The notes beneath the pieces are model-generated. The model worked only from the letters and a program-made list of their open reading frames with translations. It was not told where the DNA came from and ran no database searches. From positions 1-64,000 of the forward strand of contig JAIOAQ010000015.1 in the NCBI GenBank assembly GCA_019873735.1: a stretch of 64,000 nt of DNA. The letters run 5' to 3'. This document shows, one piece after another, positions 31,942-60,811 of this stretch (the stretch's first letter is position 1; each line of letters begins with the position of its first letter). Source of the stretch: Chloroflexota bacterium (GTDB lineage Bacteria > Chloroflexota > Anaerolineae > Anaerolineales > Villigracilaceae). The position numbers and the translations under genes were made by a program.

Positions 31942-32018
31942 GGGCGCGTAGCTCAGTCGGTCAGAGCGCATCACTCACATTGATGAGGTCGGGGGTTCGA
32001 GCCCCTCCGCGCCCACCA
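31942..32018 (+). tRNA. tRNA-Val (anticodon CAC), CCA encoded
   Basis: GGGCGCG/CGCGCCC acceptor; CATCA-CTCACAT-TGATG anticodon arm; GGGGG-TTCGAGC-CCCTC T-arm; ACCA end. Confidence 0.93.
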
Positions 32019-32282
32019 CAACGAGACCTTGGCGGGTCTCGTTTCGTCTTCAAAAGCGGGAGCTTCGAGTGCCCGGCGGGCGATCCGCGCCCACTAAAAC
32101 GAGACCTTGACGGGTCTCGTTTGGTTTTCAAAAGCGGGGGCTTCGAGTGCCCTGCGGGCGATCCGCGCCCACTACAACGAGACCTTGGCGGGTCTCGTTT
32201 CGTTTTCAAAAGCGGGGGCTTCGAGTGCCCTGCGGGCGATCCGCGCCCACTACAACGAGACCTTGACGGGTCTCGTTTCGTT
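32007..32282 (+). repeat. Tandem array of tRNA-Val 3'-end remnant plus terminator hairpin (78-bp period)
   Basis: ccgcgcccac at 32007 (in the tRNA), 32085, 32163 and 32241 (exact 78-bp spacing); acgagacc...ggtctcgt hairpins at 32021, 32099, 32177 and 32255. Confidence 0.9.
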
Positions 32283-32381
32283 TTAACTCAAGGCAAAAAT
32301 TCACCGCCGAGACGCCGAGAGCGCAGAGTATTTTTCATAAAAGGGCGACTCACGCCGGGGCGGAGCGATGTAGGGCAAGAT

Positions 32382-32477: not shown

Positions 32478-35144
32478 TTAACGATGGGAGAGACAACCAC
32501 CCGAAAACCCAGACTCCCGTAGAGGCTGTCCGGATCGCACCAGCTGCGAAGGGCACAGCGCGCCCCCGCGACTGCTGACGAACGAACCGCCGCGTACCAC
32601 ACGGTAGCCAGAAGCGGCTTCGTCTTCGCGGCCGTCGTCCACCCGGTAGGGATAAGATTTGTAAAGCGAATGGGTCCACTCCCAGACGTTGCCGGCCATG
32701 TCGGCGCAGCCGTAGGGCGAATCACCCTGCGGGGAGAATTGCCCCACCGGGGAAGTACCGCCGAGGCCGGTTTCAGCCACGTTGCACCTTTGGGGATCGA
32801 AGTCATCTCCCCAGGGGTACACACGTCCATCTGTGCCGCGGGCAGCCTTTTCCCATTCGGCTTCGGTCGGCAGGCGGTAGGCTTTGCCGCTTTTTTCGCT
32901 CAGCCACCGGCAGTAGGCCTGCGCATCCTCCCAGGAAACGTTCACCACCGGGTGGTCGCCCTTTTCGGGCGGGTACTGGTCGCCATCCCAATCCCGCGGC
33001 GGCCGCTGGCCAGTTTCCTTTACAAACAATTGATACTCCCGGTTTGTCACCGGGTATTTGCCGATGAAGTATTCCGGCAGGTCCACTTCGTGCGCCGGCT
33101 GTTCGTCCTTGAGCCAGCACTGCCATTCTTTGTCGTTGTTGACCTCCTTCAAAACCCGCTGCGCCTGTTCCGGGGTGGTGCCCATCAAGAATTTGCCGGC
33201 CGGGATGCGCACCATCTGCGGCTCGAAGGGCTGGCGCGCCGCTTCGGCGGAGGCAGCCTGCGGCGCTTCGGCGCGGCTGGTGAGAGTGAAGTACAGGCGC
33301 AGTTCGTCGGGAAGCAGGCCGGTGAAATTAGCATCGGGCATCTGCGGCGGGTGCAGGGTGAGCATGCGGCGCACAGCCTGACGGGCGGCATAGGGCGCCA
33401 GGGCGGGCGGCAGTTCGGCCCGGGGCGCAGTTCCCTTCTCCGCCCCGCGCCGGCCGGGCAAGGGTTCGCCTTCGGTTGCTTCTCCGGCGCGGCTTTCGAG
33501 GCGGTAATACTCTTCCAGTTCCTGCAGATAGCGCGGCGTTTCCTTGAGCAGCGCATACAGTTCGGGATAGACGGTCTGGATGGCCACCACCTTCGCCAGG
33601 CGGATGGGCTTGATGCGCCCCTGGAGTTTTTTCTCGCGCTTCTCGGCCAGCCTCCAGAGCATCAGAAAGACGTTCACGGTGCGCTTGATCTGGCGCGGGT
33701 TGTCGCCCAGGCCCTCGGCAAAGACTCGCGGACATTCTGGATGCGGCCACTCGGTGCTCAAGCCGCTGACGAAGTCGTCCATATCGTCGCGCTCCACCGG
33801 CGGAATCCAGAAGGGCAACTGGATGATTTTCTCCAGGTAGCGCGCCCCGTCAATGACGAAGCGCGGCGCCTTGTCCTCCTCGCTGTTCTGTTTCAACTCG
33901 CGATACTTGATCTCGATGCCGCGGGCAATGACCTCCTGATCGAGGCCGAGCAGGAAGACACAGCCGGGCACATCCACGAACAATTTGATGGCCTCCAGCA
34001 CTTCGATGGCCTTCTCCGGCAGGCAGCGGTCGAGGTCATCCACAAAGACCACCAGGCGGCCGTTTTGGGCACAGATGCGGTCTTTGACCAGGCGGGCAAA
34101 CTGCTGCTGGAACTGCTCGAGGAAGCGCACCTGCTCGATGTGAATCTTCGTCCGCTCGCGCTGGATGGCCTCGAAGGCGGTCTCGCTCAGATTCTCGGCC
34201 CCGGCCTTTTGCAATTCTTCGACCAGTTTGTCCAGCGCCGCCCCGCCGGGGAGAAAAGGCAGGCCGATTTGCACCGCCCCCTGGGCCGCTTTGGCGCCCA
34301 GTTTCGCCAGATCAATCGTCACCCCGCCGGATTTCTCCAGGTCGAGGGCGCGGTAGAGCAGGGCGGTCAGTTTGCTGAGTTCGTCATCGGTGAGTTTCCC
34401 GTCAAGATGCAGCGCCGAAAGGATGCTCAACGGGAAGGCGCGCCAGAGCGTCTCTTCCTTATCGTACTTCCAGGCGTCGAACCAGGCCACGGTGAACGTC
34501 GGCGGCAAGCCTTTTCTCACCATCCGCATCAGCGAGGTCTTGCCCGACCCCCAGGTGCCGAATACGCCGATGGTCAGCGGCGTGATGGCCGTTTTGCACA
34601 CATCCACCAGCGTTTCGACGTAGGGGGTAAAGTCGAGCAAGTCTTTGTCGGTGGGCAGACTCACAGAAGAAGCAGCAACCGATGGCTTGGAAACGGATTG
34701 AGTGGGCGGCGGTAAAATTTTCAACGCATCTGCCCGCAGATACAACGATTGCAAGAGTTTCTCTTGAGCGTCGGGCAGGAAATAATCCGCCCATTGCCAT
34801 TGCTGGAATATTAACGGCAGTTCGCAATCGTCCAAGCGCAGGGGGATGATGTAAATCGTCCCTTCAGGTTTTTCTTCAGCAAAGGTCAAGGCACGCTTGA
34901 ATTCCTTTTGGATATAGCCCTCTTTGTCAACCGATTCTTTTGAAAGACACACAAGAATTGCATCGGCGTTGCGCAAGGCTTTGAAAATTTCTACTTCCCA
35001 ATCCATTCCAGGAAGGAGATTGACTTCATCCAGCCAGGGTTCGATCCATGGCTGAGACTTAAGCAATTTGTACAAATCCCTTATGAGGGGTTTATCTTCT
35101 TTTGCATGGCAGAGAAAAACTCGAAGAGGTCGCGGTTTGGGCAT
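32478..35144 (-). CDS. TIR - KAP P-loop NTPase - FGE-sulfatase/C-type-lectin-fold fusion; C-terminus apparently frameshifted
   Basis: TIR: VFLCHAKEDKPLIRDLYKLL...LVCLSKESV; KAP: IGVFGTWGSGKTSLMRMV...VVFVDDLDRCLPEKAIEVLEAIKLFV; FGE: VRIPAGKFLMGT...YPVTNREYQLFV...VVNVSWEDAQAYCRWLS...YRLPTEAEWEKAARG...YGCADMAGNVWEWT...YRVVRGGS. Canonical ARCALRSW..GFRVVVSP tail lies in another frame, ending at 32465. Confidence 0.88.
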   Translation of the reverse strand: MPKPRPLRVFLCHAKEDKPLIRDLYKLLKSQPWIEPWLDEVNLLPGMDWEVEIFKALRNADAILVCLSKESVDKEGYIQKEFKRALTFAEEKPEGTIYIIPLRLDDCELPLIFQQWQWADYFLPDAQEKLLQSLYLRADALKILPPPTQSVSKPSVAASSVSLPTDKDLLDFTPYVETLVDVCKTAITPLTIGVFGTWGSGKTSLMRMVRKGLPPTFTVAWFDAWKYDKEETLWRAFPLSILSALHLDGKLTDDELSKLTALLYRALDLEKSGGVTIDLAKLGAKAAQGAVQIGLPFLPGGAALDKLVEELQKAGAENLSETAFEAIQRERTKIHIEQVRFLEQFQQQFARLVKDRICAQNGRLVVFVDDLDRCLPEKAIEVLEAIKLFVDVPGCVFLLGLDQEVIARGIEIKYRELKQNSEEDKAPRFVIDGARYLEKIIQLPFWIPPVERDDMDDFVSGLSTEWPHPECPRVFAEGLGDNPRQIKRTVNVFLMLWRLAEKREKKLQGRIKPIRLAKVVAIQTVYPELYALLKETPRYLQELEEYYRLESRAGEATEGEPLPGRRGAEKGTAPRAELPPALAPYAARQAVRRMLTLHPPQMPDANFTGLLPDELRLYFTLTSRAEAPQAASAEAARQPFEPQMVRIPAGKFLMGTTPEQAQRVLKEVNNDKEWQCWLKDEQPAHEVDLPEYFIGKYPVTNREYQLFVKETGQRPPRDWDGDQYPPEKGDHPVVNVSWEDAQAYCRWLSEKSGKAYRLPTEAEWEKAARGTDGRVYPWGDDFDPQRCNVAETGLGGTSPVGQFSPQGDSPYGCADMAGNVWEWTHSLYKSYPYRVDDGREDEAASGYRVVRGGSFVSSRGGALCPSQLVRSGQPLRESGFSGGCLSHR

Positions 35145-57538: not shown

Positions 57539-58240
57539 ATGCTGCTCCTCTTCCGGTTCCTGCGCCTGGCCTTTTACGTCCTCTATCATCCCCTGGCCTG
57601 GTCGTACGACTGGGTTGCCGACCTGGTTTCGCTTGGGCAATGGAGGAAGTGGATCAGGACAATCATCCCGTACCTTGAAGGCGAACACATCCTGGAACTT
57701 GGTCACGGCCCCGGGCATTTACAACGGTTCCTGCTGGAAGGCGGGCTGTTTCCGTTTGGCCTGGACGAATCGGCCCCGATGGGACGGCTGGCACGTCGCA
57801 ACCTGCACCGCACTGGCTATACGCAACACCGGCTAACGCGCGCATTGGCGCAATCCCTGCCGTTTCCCGCCAACACTTTCACCACAGTGGTTGCCACCTT
57901 CCCGGCCGAATACATCTTCGATGCGCGCACCCTGTCCGAGGTCCGGCGCGTCTTGCTCCCCAACGGGAAACTGGTCATCTTGCTTTCTGCCTGGCCAAAC
58001 AGCCGTTCCTTGCCGGGGCGCTTCTTTGCCTGGCTATTCCGTATCACCGGTCAGACCACACAAACCGGGCAGAGATTCGAGCGCCGCGTGCGACAGCCGT
58101 TTGAGCAAGCAGGGTGGAGAGTCAAAGTAGAATCCTTGAATCTCCCCAATGGCCGCCTGACCATTCTGCATGCCCAAAATAACCAAACAGACCTTTGCGA
58201 CCCGCCCGGTTTGCAAGTACAATCATCTCACCCATCATAG
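57539..58240 (+). CDS. Class I SAM-dependent methyltransferase
   Basis: HILELGHGPGHLQRFLLEGG, VVATFPAEYIFDARTLSEVRRVLLPNGKLVILL; ATG 57539 preferred because the GTG at 57512 lies in the terminator loop. Confidence 0.82.
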   Translation: MLLLFRFLRLAFYVLYHPLAWSYDWVADLVSLGQWRKWIRTIIPYLEGEHILELGHGPGHLQRFLLEGGLFPFGLDESAPMGRLARRNLHRTGYTQHRLTRALAQSLPFPANTFTTVVATFPAEYIFDARTLSEVRRVLLPNGKLVILLSAWPNSRSLPGRFFAWLFRITGQTTQTGQRFERRVRQPFEQAGWRVKVESLNLPNGRLTILHAQNNQTDLCDPPGLQVQSSHPS

Positions 58241-58250
58241 GAGAAACCCG

Positions 58251-59195
58251 ATGGATACACCTGTCAATCCAGAAACCCGCTTCTTACACGCCGTAGAAAT
58301 GGGGGTAGGCACCTGGCAATGGGGTGACCGCGTGGTATGGAATTATGGACACAACTACGACGAGGATGCTATCCGGGCCGCCTTCAACGCCTCTCTTGAA
58401 CAGGGTGTGCGTCTGTTTGATACGGCTGAGGTTTACGGCAACGGCCAATCGGAACGCATTCTGGGGACGCTGATCAAAGAGACCAATCAGCCGGTGCTGG
58501 TTGCCACGAAGTTTATGCCATTTCCCTGGCGGCTGGAACGCAAGTCTTTACTCCGCGCCTTAAAAAACAGCCTCGACCGCCTGGGCCTGGAAAGCGTAGA
58601 CCTGTATCAAATGCATTGGCCTTTTCCGCCCATCTCCATTGAGAAGTGGATGAGCGTCATGGCGGAGGCGGTACAACAAGGCTGGACGCGCACCGTTGGG
58701 GTATCCAACTACAGTCACACCCAAATGATGCGCGCCTACGCTGCCCTTGAGCGGCGCGGCCTGCCGCTGGCATCCAATCAGGTCGAATACAATTTGTTGA
58801 ATCGGGAAATCGAAAAGAACGGCCTGCTCAGGCGCTGCCAGGAACTGGGCATTCGGGTGATTGCCTACAGCCCTCTGGCCATGGGGCTGTTAACCGGCAA
58901 GTACGGCCCCGAAAACCCGCCGCCCGGGCTGCGCGGACGCAAATATGCCGGCCTGCTCAGACGCCTGAAGCCGCTGATAAACCTGATGACCGAAATCGGG
59001 CGCGAACACGAGAGCAAGTCGTGTGCCCAAGTGGCCCTAAACTGGTGCATCTGCAAAGGCACCTTGCCCATTCCGGGCGCAAAGAACGCCGAGCAAGCCC
59101 TGATGAATGCCGGAGCATTGGGCTGGCGGCTGAGCGAAGAAGAAATTGCCCGGTTGGATAGCGCCAGTGAAAGTGTGGTGAGAAGCGCGTCTTGA
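58251..59195 (+). CDS. Aldo/keto reductase
   Basis: LFDTAEVYGNGQSERILG, VLVATKFMPFPWRL, DLYQMHWP, VGVSNYSHTQM, ASNQVEYNLLNR, VIAYSPLAMGLLTGKY. Confidence 0.93.
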   Translation: MDTPVNPETRFLHAVEMGVGTWQWGDRVVWNYGHNYDEDAIRAAFNASLEQGVRLFDTAEVYGNGQSERILGTLIKETNQPVLVATKFMPFPWRLERKSLLRALKNSLDRLGLESVDLYQMHWPFPPISIEKWMSVMAEAVQQGWTRTVGVSNYSHTQMMRAYAALERRGLPLASNQVEYNLLNREIEKNGLLRRCQELGIRVIAYSPLAMGLLTGKYGPENPPPGLRGRKYAGLLRRLKPLINLMTEIGREHESKSCAQVALNWCICKGTLPIPGAKNAEQALMNAGALGWRLSEEEIARLDSASESVVRSAS

Positions 59196-59431
59196 ACCCA
59201 TTTATCCCGAGCGGGGACTTCCTTTGATAAAAAAAAGCCCCCGTTTTCACAGGGGCTCGCTGGGTGCCCAGTGGGTCTTGAACCCATCTATCCCCCGCGG
59301 GGACTTCCTTTGATAAAAAAGCCCCTGTTTTCACAGGGGCTCGCTGGGTGCCCAGTGGGTCTTGAACCCATCTATCCCCCGCGGGGACTTCCTTCGATAA
59401 AAAAAGCCCCTGTTTTCACAGGGGCTCGCTG
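59188..59431 (-). repeat. Tandem array of tRNA-His 3'-end remnant plus terminator (84-86-bp period)
   Basis: gtcttgaaccca at 59189, 59275, 59359 and (in the tRNA) 59444; hairpin agcccc..ttttcac..ggggct plus A-run at 59236, 59320 and 59405 (terminator on minus strand). Confidence 0.92.
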
Positions 59432-59505
59432 GGTGCCCAGTGGGTCTTGAACCCACATCCTTCTGATCCACAGTCAGACGTTCCGCCAATTGAACTATGG
59501 GCACC
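59432..59505 (-). tRNA. tRNA-His (anticodon GTG) with G-1; complete CCA not encoded
   Basis: GGTGCCCA/TGGGCACC acceptor, TCTGA-CTGTGGA-TCAGA anticodon arm, GTGGG-TTCAAGA-CCCAC T-arm. Confidence 0.93.
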
Positions 59506-59533
59506 GTATAGCGGGCGGATTATACCACCACAC

Positions 59534-60811
59534 TCATGCCCTTTCAAGGATTTCGCGGATAAGGCGCGCCGCCTCTGGGCGCGGGACCTGGTTTTGTGTG
59601 CCGCTCTGCAGGTCTTTGATGGTCACCTGACCGGCAGCCGCCTCGTCTGGGCCGCAGACCAAAACAACGCGCATTCCCATTTTGTCAGCAAACTTGAATT
59701 GTCTGGGCAGTTTGGCCGGCTCTGGGTAACAGGTAACGTTCAAACCGGCCTGACGCAATTGCGCCGCCAGCCTGAGCGAATCAAGCCAATGGGTCTCATC
59801 AAAGACCGTCACCATCACGGGCGCCGGCGTTGGAACAAAAGGCGGCAAAAGACCGTTCTCTTCGAGGACGATGCCAATGACTACATCTCCCATGGCAAAA
59901 CCAACGCCTGCAAGCGGATCGCCGCCCACATCGGCCAGCAAATTATCATAACGCCCGCCGCCCAGAATGGCGCGGCGCACCCCGCCGCTCAGGTCAAATG
60001 CCTCAAAGACCGTGCCGGTGTAATACAGCAGGCCGCGCACAATATTGGGGTCAAACTCGACATATTCTCTGACGCCCAGGGCCTCCAATGCGGCAAAGAG
60101 CCGCACCAGTTCGTCCCATGTCTGCCATAAGTCTTTATCGGCCAGCAAGGATTTCAGCCCATCCAATTGCTGCCGGCTAAGGCCCTGCTCCAGCGCATAA
60201 GCCTCCCAGTTTTCAGGCGTCATCTTGTTGCGCCGATCCACCAGATTGGATACTGCCAGGCGCATTTCGGGCGGGATGCCCAAGGCTTCAAAACGGGCAT
60301 CCATCAGGCGGCGATTGTTGACAAAAATGCGCGCCAGGCCGGGGGTGAGTCCGACCGATTTCATAAAGGTGGCGGCCACGGCAATCAGTTCGGCATCTGC
60401 TTCGGGAGAGTTGACGCCCAACATGTCCACATTCCATTGGAAGAACTCGCGCGAGCGGCCTTTTTGCGGCCGTTCGTATCTCCAGAAGGGACCAAACGAC
60501 CACCAGCGCAACGGGTAAACCAGTTCATTTTGGCGGGCGGCAATCATGCGCGCCAGGCTGGGGGTGAGTTCGGGCCGCAGGGTAACGAGGTCGCCTCCCC
60601 GGTCCTGGAAGACAAAGGACTGCTCTTTGACCAATTCTTCGCCCGACTTCGCGGCGTACAGGTCAATCGTCTCCAGGAAGGGACCGTCCCATTCCTGATA
60701 GCCAAAGGCGTGCGCGGCCTGACGGGCCTTTTCCGCCAGGTAGTTGCGGACGGCCATTTGCTCAGGATAAAATTCACGCGTGCCTTTGACGGCAGGAATG
60801 ATCGTTTTCAT
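59534..60811 (-). CDS. hisS: Histidyl-tRNA synthetase
   Basis: AVKGTREFYPEQ, LVTLRPELTPSLARM, FGPFWRYERPQKGRSREFFQWNVDMLG, RGLLYYTGTVFEAFD, GGGRYDNLLADVGG. Confidence 0.94.
   Translation of the reverse strand: MKTIIPAVKGTREFYPEQMAVRNYLAEKARQAAHAFGYQEWDGPFLETIDLYAAKSGEELVKEQSFVFQDRGGDLVTLRPELTPSLARMIAARQNELVYPLRWWSFGPFWRYERPQKGRSREFFQWNVDMLGVNSPEADAELIAVAATFMKSVGLTPGLARIFVNNRRLMDARFEALGIPPEMRLAVSNLVDRRNKMTPENWEAYALEQGLSRQQLDGLKSLLADKDLWQTWDELVRLFAALEALGVREYVEFDPNIVRGLLYYTGTVFEAFDLSGGVRRAILGGGRYDNLLADVGGDPLAGVGFAMGDVVIGIVLEENGLLPPFVPTPAPVMVTVFDETHWLDSLRLAAQLRQAGLNVTCYPEPAKLPRQFKFADKMGMRVVLVCGPDEAAAGQVTIKDLQSGTQNQVPRPEAARLIREILERA

Follow-up and report, generated by a model that had tools for sequence, protein, structure and literature searches.

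Why should a tRNA gene be followed, head to tail, by copies of its own 3' end? The question is posed by the tRNA-His gene of the 64,000-nucleotide stretch of DNA analysed here (the window), behind which lie three tail copies, two complete and one degenerate, and two extra copies of the terminator (Table 1). The tail copies read TTCAAGACCCACTGGGCACCC, and the degenerate one overlaps the stop codon of a convergent aldo/keto reductase gene (58170-59195). TRF places the array at 59189-59455, with a period of 84, 3.1 copies, 95% matches and a score of 483. The window holds just two tandem arrays that score above 100, and both start inside the 3' ends of its two tRNA genes, which argues that the array at tRNA-His is not a product of chance. 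The original prediction had described a genuine tandem array of the tRNA-His 3' end, with two complete extra units followed by a partial one and with the terminator copied in register. All of this is confirmed, the three terminator hairpins each carrying a T run. Its start spacings of 86, 84 and 85 bp hold for the second and third intervals, while the first measures 85 bp.

A tRNA 3' half split by a hairpin

The original prediction read the CCCCGCGGGG palindrome of the His units as a separator between them. The sequence 5' of this palindrome is tRNA-derived too (GAAGGAAG vs GAAGGATG), and the palindrome is thus a hairpin inserted inside a copied tRNA 3' half. Nor is such an array a peculiarity of tRNA-His. 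All flanks of the 43 tRNA genes in the window's genome were read, and four genes bear tail arrays: His, Lys-TTT (79 bp, 3.2 copies, 98%), Ser-GCT (one extra unit and one partial) and Val-CAC, the last lying in the window itself and having been overlooked. In the tRNA-Ser gene CAGCCGCGGG runs directly into TTCGAATCCC, whereas in the unit CCCCCGAGGGGGATGATA stands between them; likewise, TTCAGGG is followed by TTCGAATCCC in tRNA-Lys, and by CCCCCATTCAGGGGGTGGTA and then TTCGAATCCC in its unit. The His insert is placed four bases further 5' than those of Ser and Lys, ahead of TGGG-TTCAAG. Terminators are present in the His, Lys and Ser units, and the Val-CAC unit runs in the order terminator, T-arm-like stretch, hairpin insert (TGCCC-TGC/GGC-GGGCGA, on the 3' side of the T-loop) and acceptor tail.

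Table 1. Features of the two tRNA-tail arrays in the window.
Feature	Position	Strand	Source
tRNA-His(GTG), from which the array derives; its own 3' end is counted as the first tail	59431-59504	-	ARAGORN; Rfam RF00005, 65.1 bits
tRNA-His promoter, sigma-70-like, TTGAAA-17-TATAAT, within the hisS 3' end	59519-59547	-	motif scan
tRNA-His intrinsic terminator, copy 1	59404-59427	-	terminator scan
His hairpin insert 1, TCCCCGCGGGGGATAGA, flanked by tRNA-derived AAGGAAG and TGGGTTCAAG, tRNA position ~49/50	59371-59387	-	sequence
Extra tRNA-His tail 1, T-loop to discriminator, 20/20	59346-59366	-	alignment to tRNA
His terminator, copy 2	59319-59342	-	terminator scan
His hairpin insert 2, TCCCCGCGGGGGATAGA	59287-59303	-	sequence
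Extra tRNA-His tail 2, 20/20	59262-59282	-	alignment to tRNA
His terminator, copy 3, one stem change	59235-59258	-	terminator scan
His hairpin insert 3, degenerate, TCCCCGCTCGGGATAAA	59202-59218	-	sequence
His tail 3, degenerate, 15/20	59177-59197	-	alignment to tRNA
tRNA-Val(CAC), second array-bearing tRNA	31942-32018	+	ARAGORN; Rfam
tRNA-Val array, 78 bp period, 3.6 copies	32006-32284	+	TRF score 502
First Val hairpin insert, TGCCCGGCGGGCGA, 3' side of T-loop, ~59/60	32070-32083	+	sequence

Two other features of this genome were seen in passing. Adjoining the tRNA-Val array, an 888-aa ORF (32478-35144, minus strand) resembles by eye a combination of TIR, a KAP-type P-loop NTPase and a formylglycine-generating/sulfatase-modifying domain, and is possibly a candidate for a role in defence. 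A tRNA-SeC is apparently encoded on another contig (C55, L031), which makes a selenocysteine system likely.

The same anatomy recurs in the arrays that we collected from the order Anaerolineales, to which this bacterium belongs. The unit is the tRNA's own 3' half, from about position 40-44 to the discriminator, with a short hairpin at a helix border, and it is repeated head to tail directly behind the gene. The insert is a hairpin of 14-20 nt, typically TCCCC-n-GGGGATGATA, and its consensus across unrelated tRNAs is YCCCC, 3-6 nt, GGGG and ATGNTA. A perfectly paired hairpin with 4 bp or more stands just 5' of the T-loop in 142 of 151 extra tails, and in the other 9 a similar, shorter or mismatched hairpin can be recognized by eye. 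The 10 nt on the 5' side of the insert match the array's own tRNA at 8.4 of 10 positions, vs 4.9 of 10 for other isotypes. Extra tails are perfect (20/20) in 94 of 142 cases whereas the spacers diverge, a contrast that suggests constraint or ongoing renewal more than decay.

Inserts are found at about 37-39 and at 43/44, 49/50, 53/54, 55/56, 59/60 and 65/66, all of them helix borders or sites in the T-loop. Most lie at 53/54; the others are at 49/50 (His), 43/44 (Val-TAC), 55/56 (L239 and L246), 59/60 (Gln, Cys, Glu and the Val-CAC of the window's genome), 65/66 (Ser-GGA of Longilinea) and near 37-39 (L205), and some units contain two or three different hairpins (L315, L205). Identical inserts link different tRNA genes in 15 of 49 comparisons within a genome vs 212 of 4278 between genomes, figures of little weight since some of the pairs come from one array. 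Several stems have been altered on both sides: TCTCC/GGAGA (L132), CCTCC/GGAG (L128), CCCTC/GAGGG (L107), CCTC/GAGG (L315), and TTCCC/GGGAA vs TTCTC/GAGAA (L368). These paired changes come from arrays found by other means than the strict-pattern GTDB set described below, which is uninformative on covariation because it was chosen by CCCC..GGGG. The predicted folds of some units suggested an insert fitted to the acceptor stem as a mini-helix, an idea that we dropped because tRNAs with different acceptors have nearly identical inserts.

Further palindromic sequences were seen at some arrays. In a Glu-CTC array (L111, genome G036), the insert of the last full unit is split by a palindromic element of ~190 bp (ATGGCTTTCTC...GAGAAAGCCAT) that has a near-duplicate of CAGGGGGGAT at each end. 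A second hairpin family (CGCGAAGCACCCTTTAGGGTA; L113, the Val-TAC array L315, L336 and L341), inserted in tRNA-Val tails, is also present near IS200-like transposase genes.

Distribution of the arrays

A search of the genome and its relatives for tandem tail copies, which the original prediction had proposed, yielded arrays across the order. A pattern of T-loop, T run and T-loop, with almost no matches in the reversed control, is matched throughout the window's family, and tRNA-tail arrays are widespread in Anaerolineales as a whole. We collected 85 unique arrays behind 15 isoacceptors; further arrays outside this set lie behind Gln, Cys and Arg-CCT tRNAs, and a tmRNA gene bears one as well (L153). 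Array hosts include Ser, Lys, Glu, Gly, Arg, Val, Asn, Gln, Cys and Met tRNAs. Each array in the set of 85 has between 1 and 7 extra tails, and unit periods range over ~55-110 bp. Among 60 sampled relatives, the tRNA-His that BLAST ranks as most similar is not followed by an array.

Beyond the order, the arrays thin out sharply. The strict insert pattern, run across 85,488 GTDB species, returned 94 DNA stretches, nearly all of them from Anaerolineae and beside tRNAs. The remaining matches are scattered singles at the number expected by chance, except for one tRNA-Arg array on a small contig binned as Verrucomicrobiota (L194), which is probably misbinned Anaerolineales. A relaxed pattern, applied to 399 genomes of the phylum, matched 14 of the 35 genomes from this order, 0 of 19 from the class's other orders and 1 genome elsewhere; that lone match in another class (G265) was set aside, as it is not at a tRNA. 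No arrays were seen in ten genomes of other phyla, and no description of such arrays was found in a full-text search of the open literature, outside which most subscription journals lie.

The window's genome is a metagenome-derived draft of 71 contigs, a circumstance that would suit an artefact of assembly. Such an artefact is extremely improbable, and assembly error is excluded in general because genomes of isolates carry arrays: Bellilinea caldifistulae (six extra units of 69-70 bp behind Arg-TCG, at least six behind Cys, and an array behind Arg-GCG), Longilinea arvoryzae (Gly, Met and Ser) and Anaerolinea thermolimosa (Gln, Lys, Glu and Arg). Another array lies inside a contig of 3.97 Mb (G088).

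The breadth of hosts also bears on two roles or origins offered by the original prediction. A decoy in the regulation of hisS is unsupported, with arrays behind many other tRNAs and tmRNA, and with tRNA-His having a strong promoter of its own (11 of 12 consensus matches and a TG ahead of the second hexamer, where shuffles lead one to expect 0.2); neither regulation of hisS nor regulation of tRNA processing is needed to explain the array. The other is that a hairpin-rich tRNA end was multiplied by ordinary replication slippage or tandem duplication, and that template switching at palindromes gave rise to the inserts. Tandem duplications often occur close to hairpins, and the near-identity of the units within an array, as at tRNA-His, together with period differences confined to A/T runs, is what such a process would leave. 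Plain slippage fails, however, to explain why the arrays of many isoacceptors in many genera have an insert motif in common, and have it at the same position of the tRNA, and tRNA hairpins are common to all bacteria, whereas the arrays are nearly restricted to one order. We therefore consider it distinctly unlikely.

Terminators, flanks and the possible source of the hairpin

The terminator, which the original prediction made a defining part of the unit, is not the conserved part and depends on lineage. It is missing after the tRNA in 15 of the 85 arrays, successive terminators within one array are often unrelated, and the units of Bellilinea and Longilinea are mostly without them. Arrays with long spacers have a terminator behind 67 of 70 tRNAs and 39 of 43 inner tails; for arrays with short spacers the figures are 0 of 15 and 2 of 23. 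In 42 long arrays the last tail and the one before it have unrelated flanks, and a terminator still follows the last tail in 31 of these, vs 17% at random. At tRNA-His itself, a G+C-rich hairpin and a T run stand behind each tail, as in serial intrinsic terminators, and the physiological effect of the array is most simply extra termination towards the convergent gene. Regulation of the downstream gene was considered and rejected: the nearest downstream gene is convergent in 40 cases vs 28, the aldo/keto reductase gene at tRNA-His being one instance.

These terminators raise the possibility that the units act as RNA. Read-through past the first terminator would produce RNAs made of hairpin, tRNA 3' half and terminator, in which the hairpin would shield the extra half from the real 5' half, and which might serve as modules of fail-safe termination or 3'-end maturation, or as mimics of the tRNA tail. 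The high proportion of perfect tails, the pairing-preserving changes in the hairpins, the preponderance of convergent neighbours and the terminators behind own, inner and last tails of the long-unit class would all fit such a function, as would the same plan in E. coli, where the RttR RNA is annotated. The Anaerolineaceae arrays lack terminators after the tRNA, however, and the presence of arrays is sporadic, with the strict T-loop form in 14 of the 35 sampled genomes of the order. Inserts that are nearly alike serve tRNAs whose acceptor stems are quite different, and are thus not fitted to them, and Rfam covariance models matched tRNA, with no matches of note to other RNA families. A functional RNA is on the whole somewhat unlikely, although the near-perfect tails and the terminators behind last tails keep this reading alive.

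The flanks could also be read as the trace of integration. The last tail and the one before it are followed by unrelated sequences in 46 of the 85 arrays, and the sequence behind the last tail usually has a terminator of its own, as would be left if each unit were a mini-element that had entered at the T-loop, bringing a tail and terminator and leaving the original pair at the far end. Site 53/54 is the border of the T-loop, a usual crossover site of tRNA-targeting integrases, and a duplicated 3' tail with its junction in the T-loop is common to the arrays and to att scars. Yet what adjoins the junction is the 3' half of the host tRNA itself and not foreign DNA, the hairpin-T-loop motif has no match in 2.9 million viral contigs, no integrase is among the families listed for the 66 nearest downstream proteins (25 per list), which as far as those families show are ordinary metabolic ones, and no kilobase-scale element was seen between tail copies. 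The doubt that the original prediction had cast on integration scars was well placed, and we regard them as a very unlikely source of the arrays.

The hairpin also occurs outside tRNAs. CCCC-n-GGGGATGATA without a T-loop is present in 40 of 60 genomes of the family and nearly absent from the reversed-pattern control; some of these genomes have many copies, and that of the window has only one further strict copy (C25:45972). Several of the tRNA-free sites may be coding, and 4 of 44 lie inside flanking inverted repeats of at least 8 bp, vs 0.3% in the control. In one genome (G028) a dispersed repeat carries the hairpin; its copies (L260, L263-L265, L267, L268, L270, L271) read GGAGTGGATAATCTTGTGGGCCAGCC...CACCACAGAGCGCACAGT[CCCCTTCGGGGATGATA]AGAGCACGGAG..., with the same hairpin at the centre. 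Earlier work has described REPs within palindromes, Thermomicrobium roseum (Chloroflexi) being among the species concerned (PMC3733652). In several genomes of the family, an IS200-like Y1 transposase gene is ringed by hairpins of the form AATCCCGAAGGGATG(A/G)NA, about every 50 bp, and similar hairpins (ATCCCGAAGGGATGANA) flank the Y1 gene in G001, G002, G007, G016, G030 and G096. A Y1 gene with surrounding hairpins is the layout of a REP system. These hairpins are similar and not identical to the insert, only three of those seen having the exact ATGATA, and no strict co-occurrence of the Y1 transposase with arrays was found. The foot of the array hairpin reads TANCAT on the bottom strand, in place of the GT[AG]G/GTAG or CGTC tag of REPs, and the window's genome yielded no close homologue of the REP-flanked Y1 transposase; for these reasons we call the insert REP-like in behaviour and do not file it as a REP. 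A conserved protein of ~550 aa with a Y1-like domain, encoded beside polA, was entertained as a candidate enzyme and rejected, the HUH motif being apparently missing on reading. This protein, of 500-570 aa with the Y1-like domain at its C-terminus, was seen in four Anaerolineales genomes (G000:C6:46244-46600, the window's own, L289; L287, L291, L294) and is probably present in most.

The explanation that we prefer, tentatively and with a little less than even confidence, is that a REP-like mini-hairpin became lodged in duplicated tRNA 3' halves and was tandemly amplified, and that in this lineage the array also provides serial terminators. The insert would be a dispersed palindrome of the kind moved in single-stranded form by Y1 transposases (IS200/RAYT-type), and by such a single-strand route it could lodge in hairpin loops or joints such as the T-arm. 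It would survive only in a spare 3' half, because an insert in the gene itself would destroy the tRNA. The unit of hairpin, tail and spacer might then be gained and lost in tandem through unequal recombination or slippage, as in BIME arrays. Because the spacer in this lineage holds an intrinsic terminator, transcription from tRNA-His would meet two or three stop signals in a row before reaching the convergent aldo/keto reductase gene. Mobility, the part played by a Y1 enzyme and the route by which the 3' half was first copied are what we infer here. No arrays of the same hairpin were seen around ordinary terminators, so that the proposal does not account for the duplication of tRNA 3' halves in the first place. 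The near-perfect extra tails and the frequent terminators behind last tails also count against it.

Parallels with known repeat systems

REP and BIME sequences with their Y1 (RAYT) enzymes resemble the arrays in having dispersed hairpins of 17-20 nt, some within other palindromes, tandem composites, and similar hairpins around a Y1 transposase of the family. Apart from the tag, and from the search of the window's genome in which no cognate transposase was found, they differ in that the linker here is a tRNA 3' half, and in that BIME hairpins alternate in orientation whereas all tRNA-array units inspected run head to tail. The Rickettsia palindromic elements are likewise small palindromes that have entered genes; RPE-1, for example, lies in a tRNA pseudouridine synthase gene (PMC3733652). 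Unlike the array hairpins, they have no link to tandem repeats of tRNA 3' halves. Their sequence is presumably unrelated to that of the array insert.

The parallel that the original prediction drew with the rtT repeats of the E. coli tyrT-tyrV locus (RttR RNA, RF00391) stands, as there too tandem units lie directly behind a tRNA and each ends in an exact tail. The K-12 unit reads CTTCG(ACC)AAGGTTCGA, a tRNA-Tyr stretch from 5' of the tail, followed by a hairpin-rich T-loop insert of 66 nt and then the tail. From this sequence, rtT seems to share the plan of a split 3' half, which is a good lead and not proof: the tRNA-Tyr stretch has a p of 0.0008 with simple unit shuffles and the adjoining stretch only, and of 0.47 vs the whole tRNA body with dinucleotide shuffles. 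The two systems also differ. The rtT unit of 178 bp encodes RttR and Tpr at a single locus, whereas the Anaerolineales units are shorter, none of the arrays having a period of the rtT type, and share a short hairpin behind many tRNAs. RF00391 matched only the E. coli locus, and none of the four array loci of the window's genome or three of other Anaerolineales. It is conceivable, if rather unlikely, that a tRNA or tmRNA 3' half split at a helix border by a hairpin is a functional module, as RNA or as DNA, that has come about more than once, in Anaerolineales and in E. coli, under selection for the isolation or termination of tRNA transcription units or for contact with the enzymes that act on tRNA 3' ends.

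To our knowledge, the E. coli tRNA-Tyr repeats have long stood alone as a curiosity, and no account of their origin has gained acceptance. The Anaerolineales arrays, which involve many tRNAs and tmRNA, differ in their number of extra copies, come with and without terminators, use seven insert borders and occur in cultured isolates, form a natural series in which one can ask how such repeats originate, whether a REP-like hairpin and a Y1 enzyme drive them, and what they do to the transcription or maturation of tRNA. The E. coli unit itself can now be interpreted as a 3' half of tRNA-Tyr that is split in the T-loop, a reading that can be tested in other enterobacteria.
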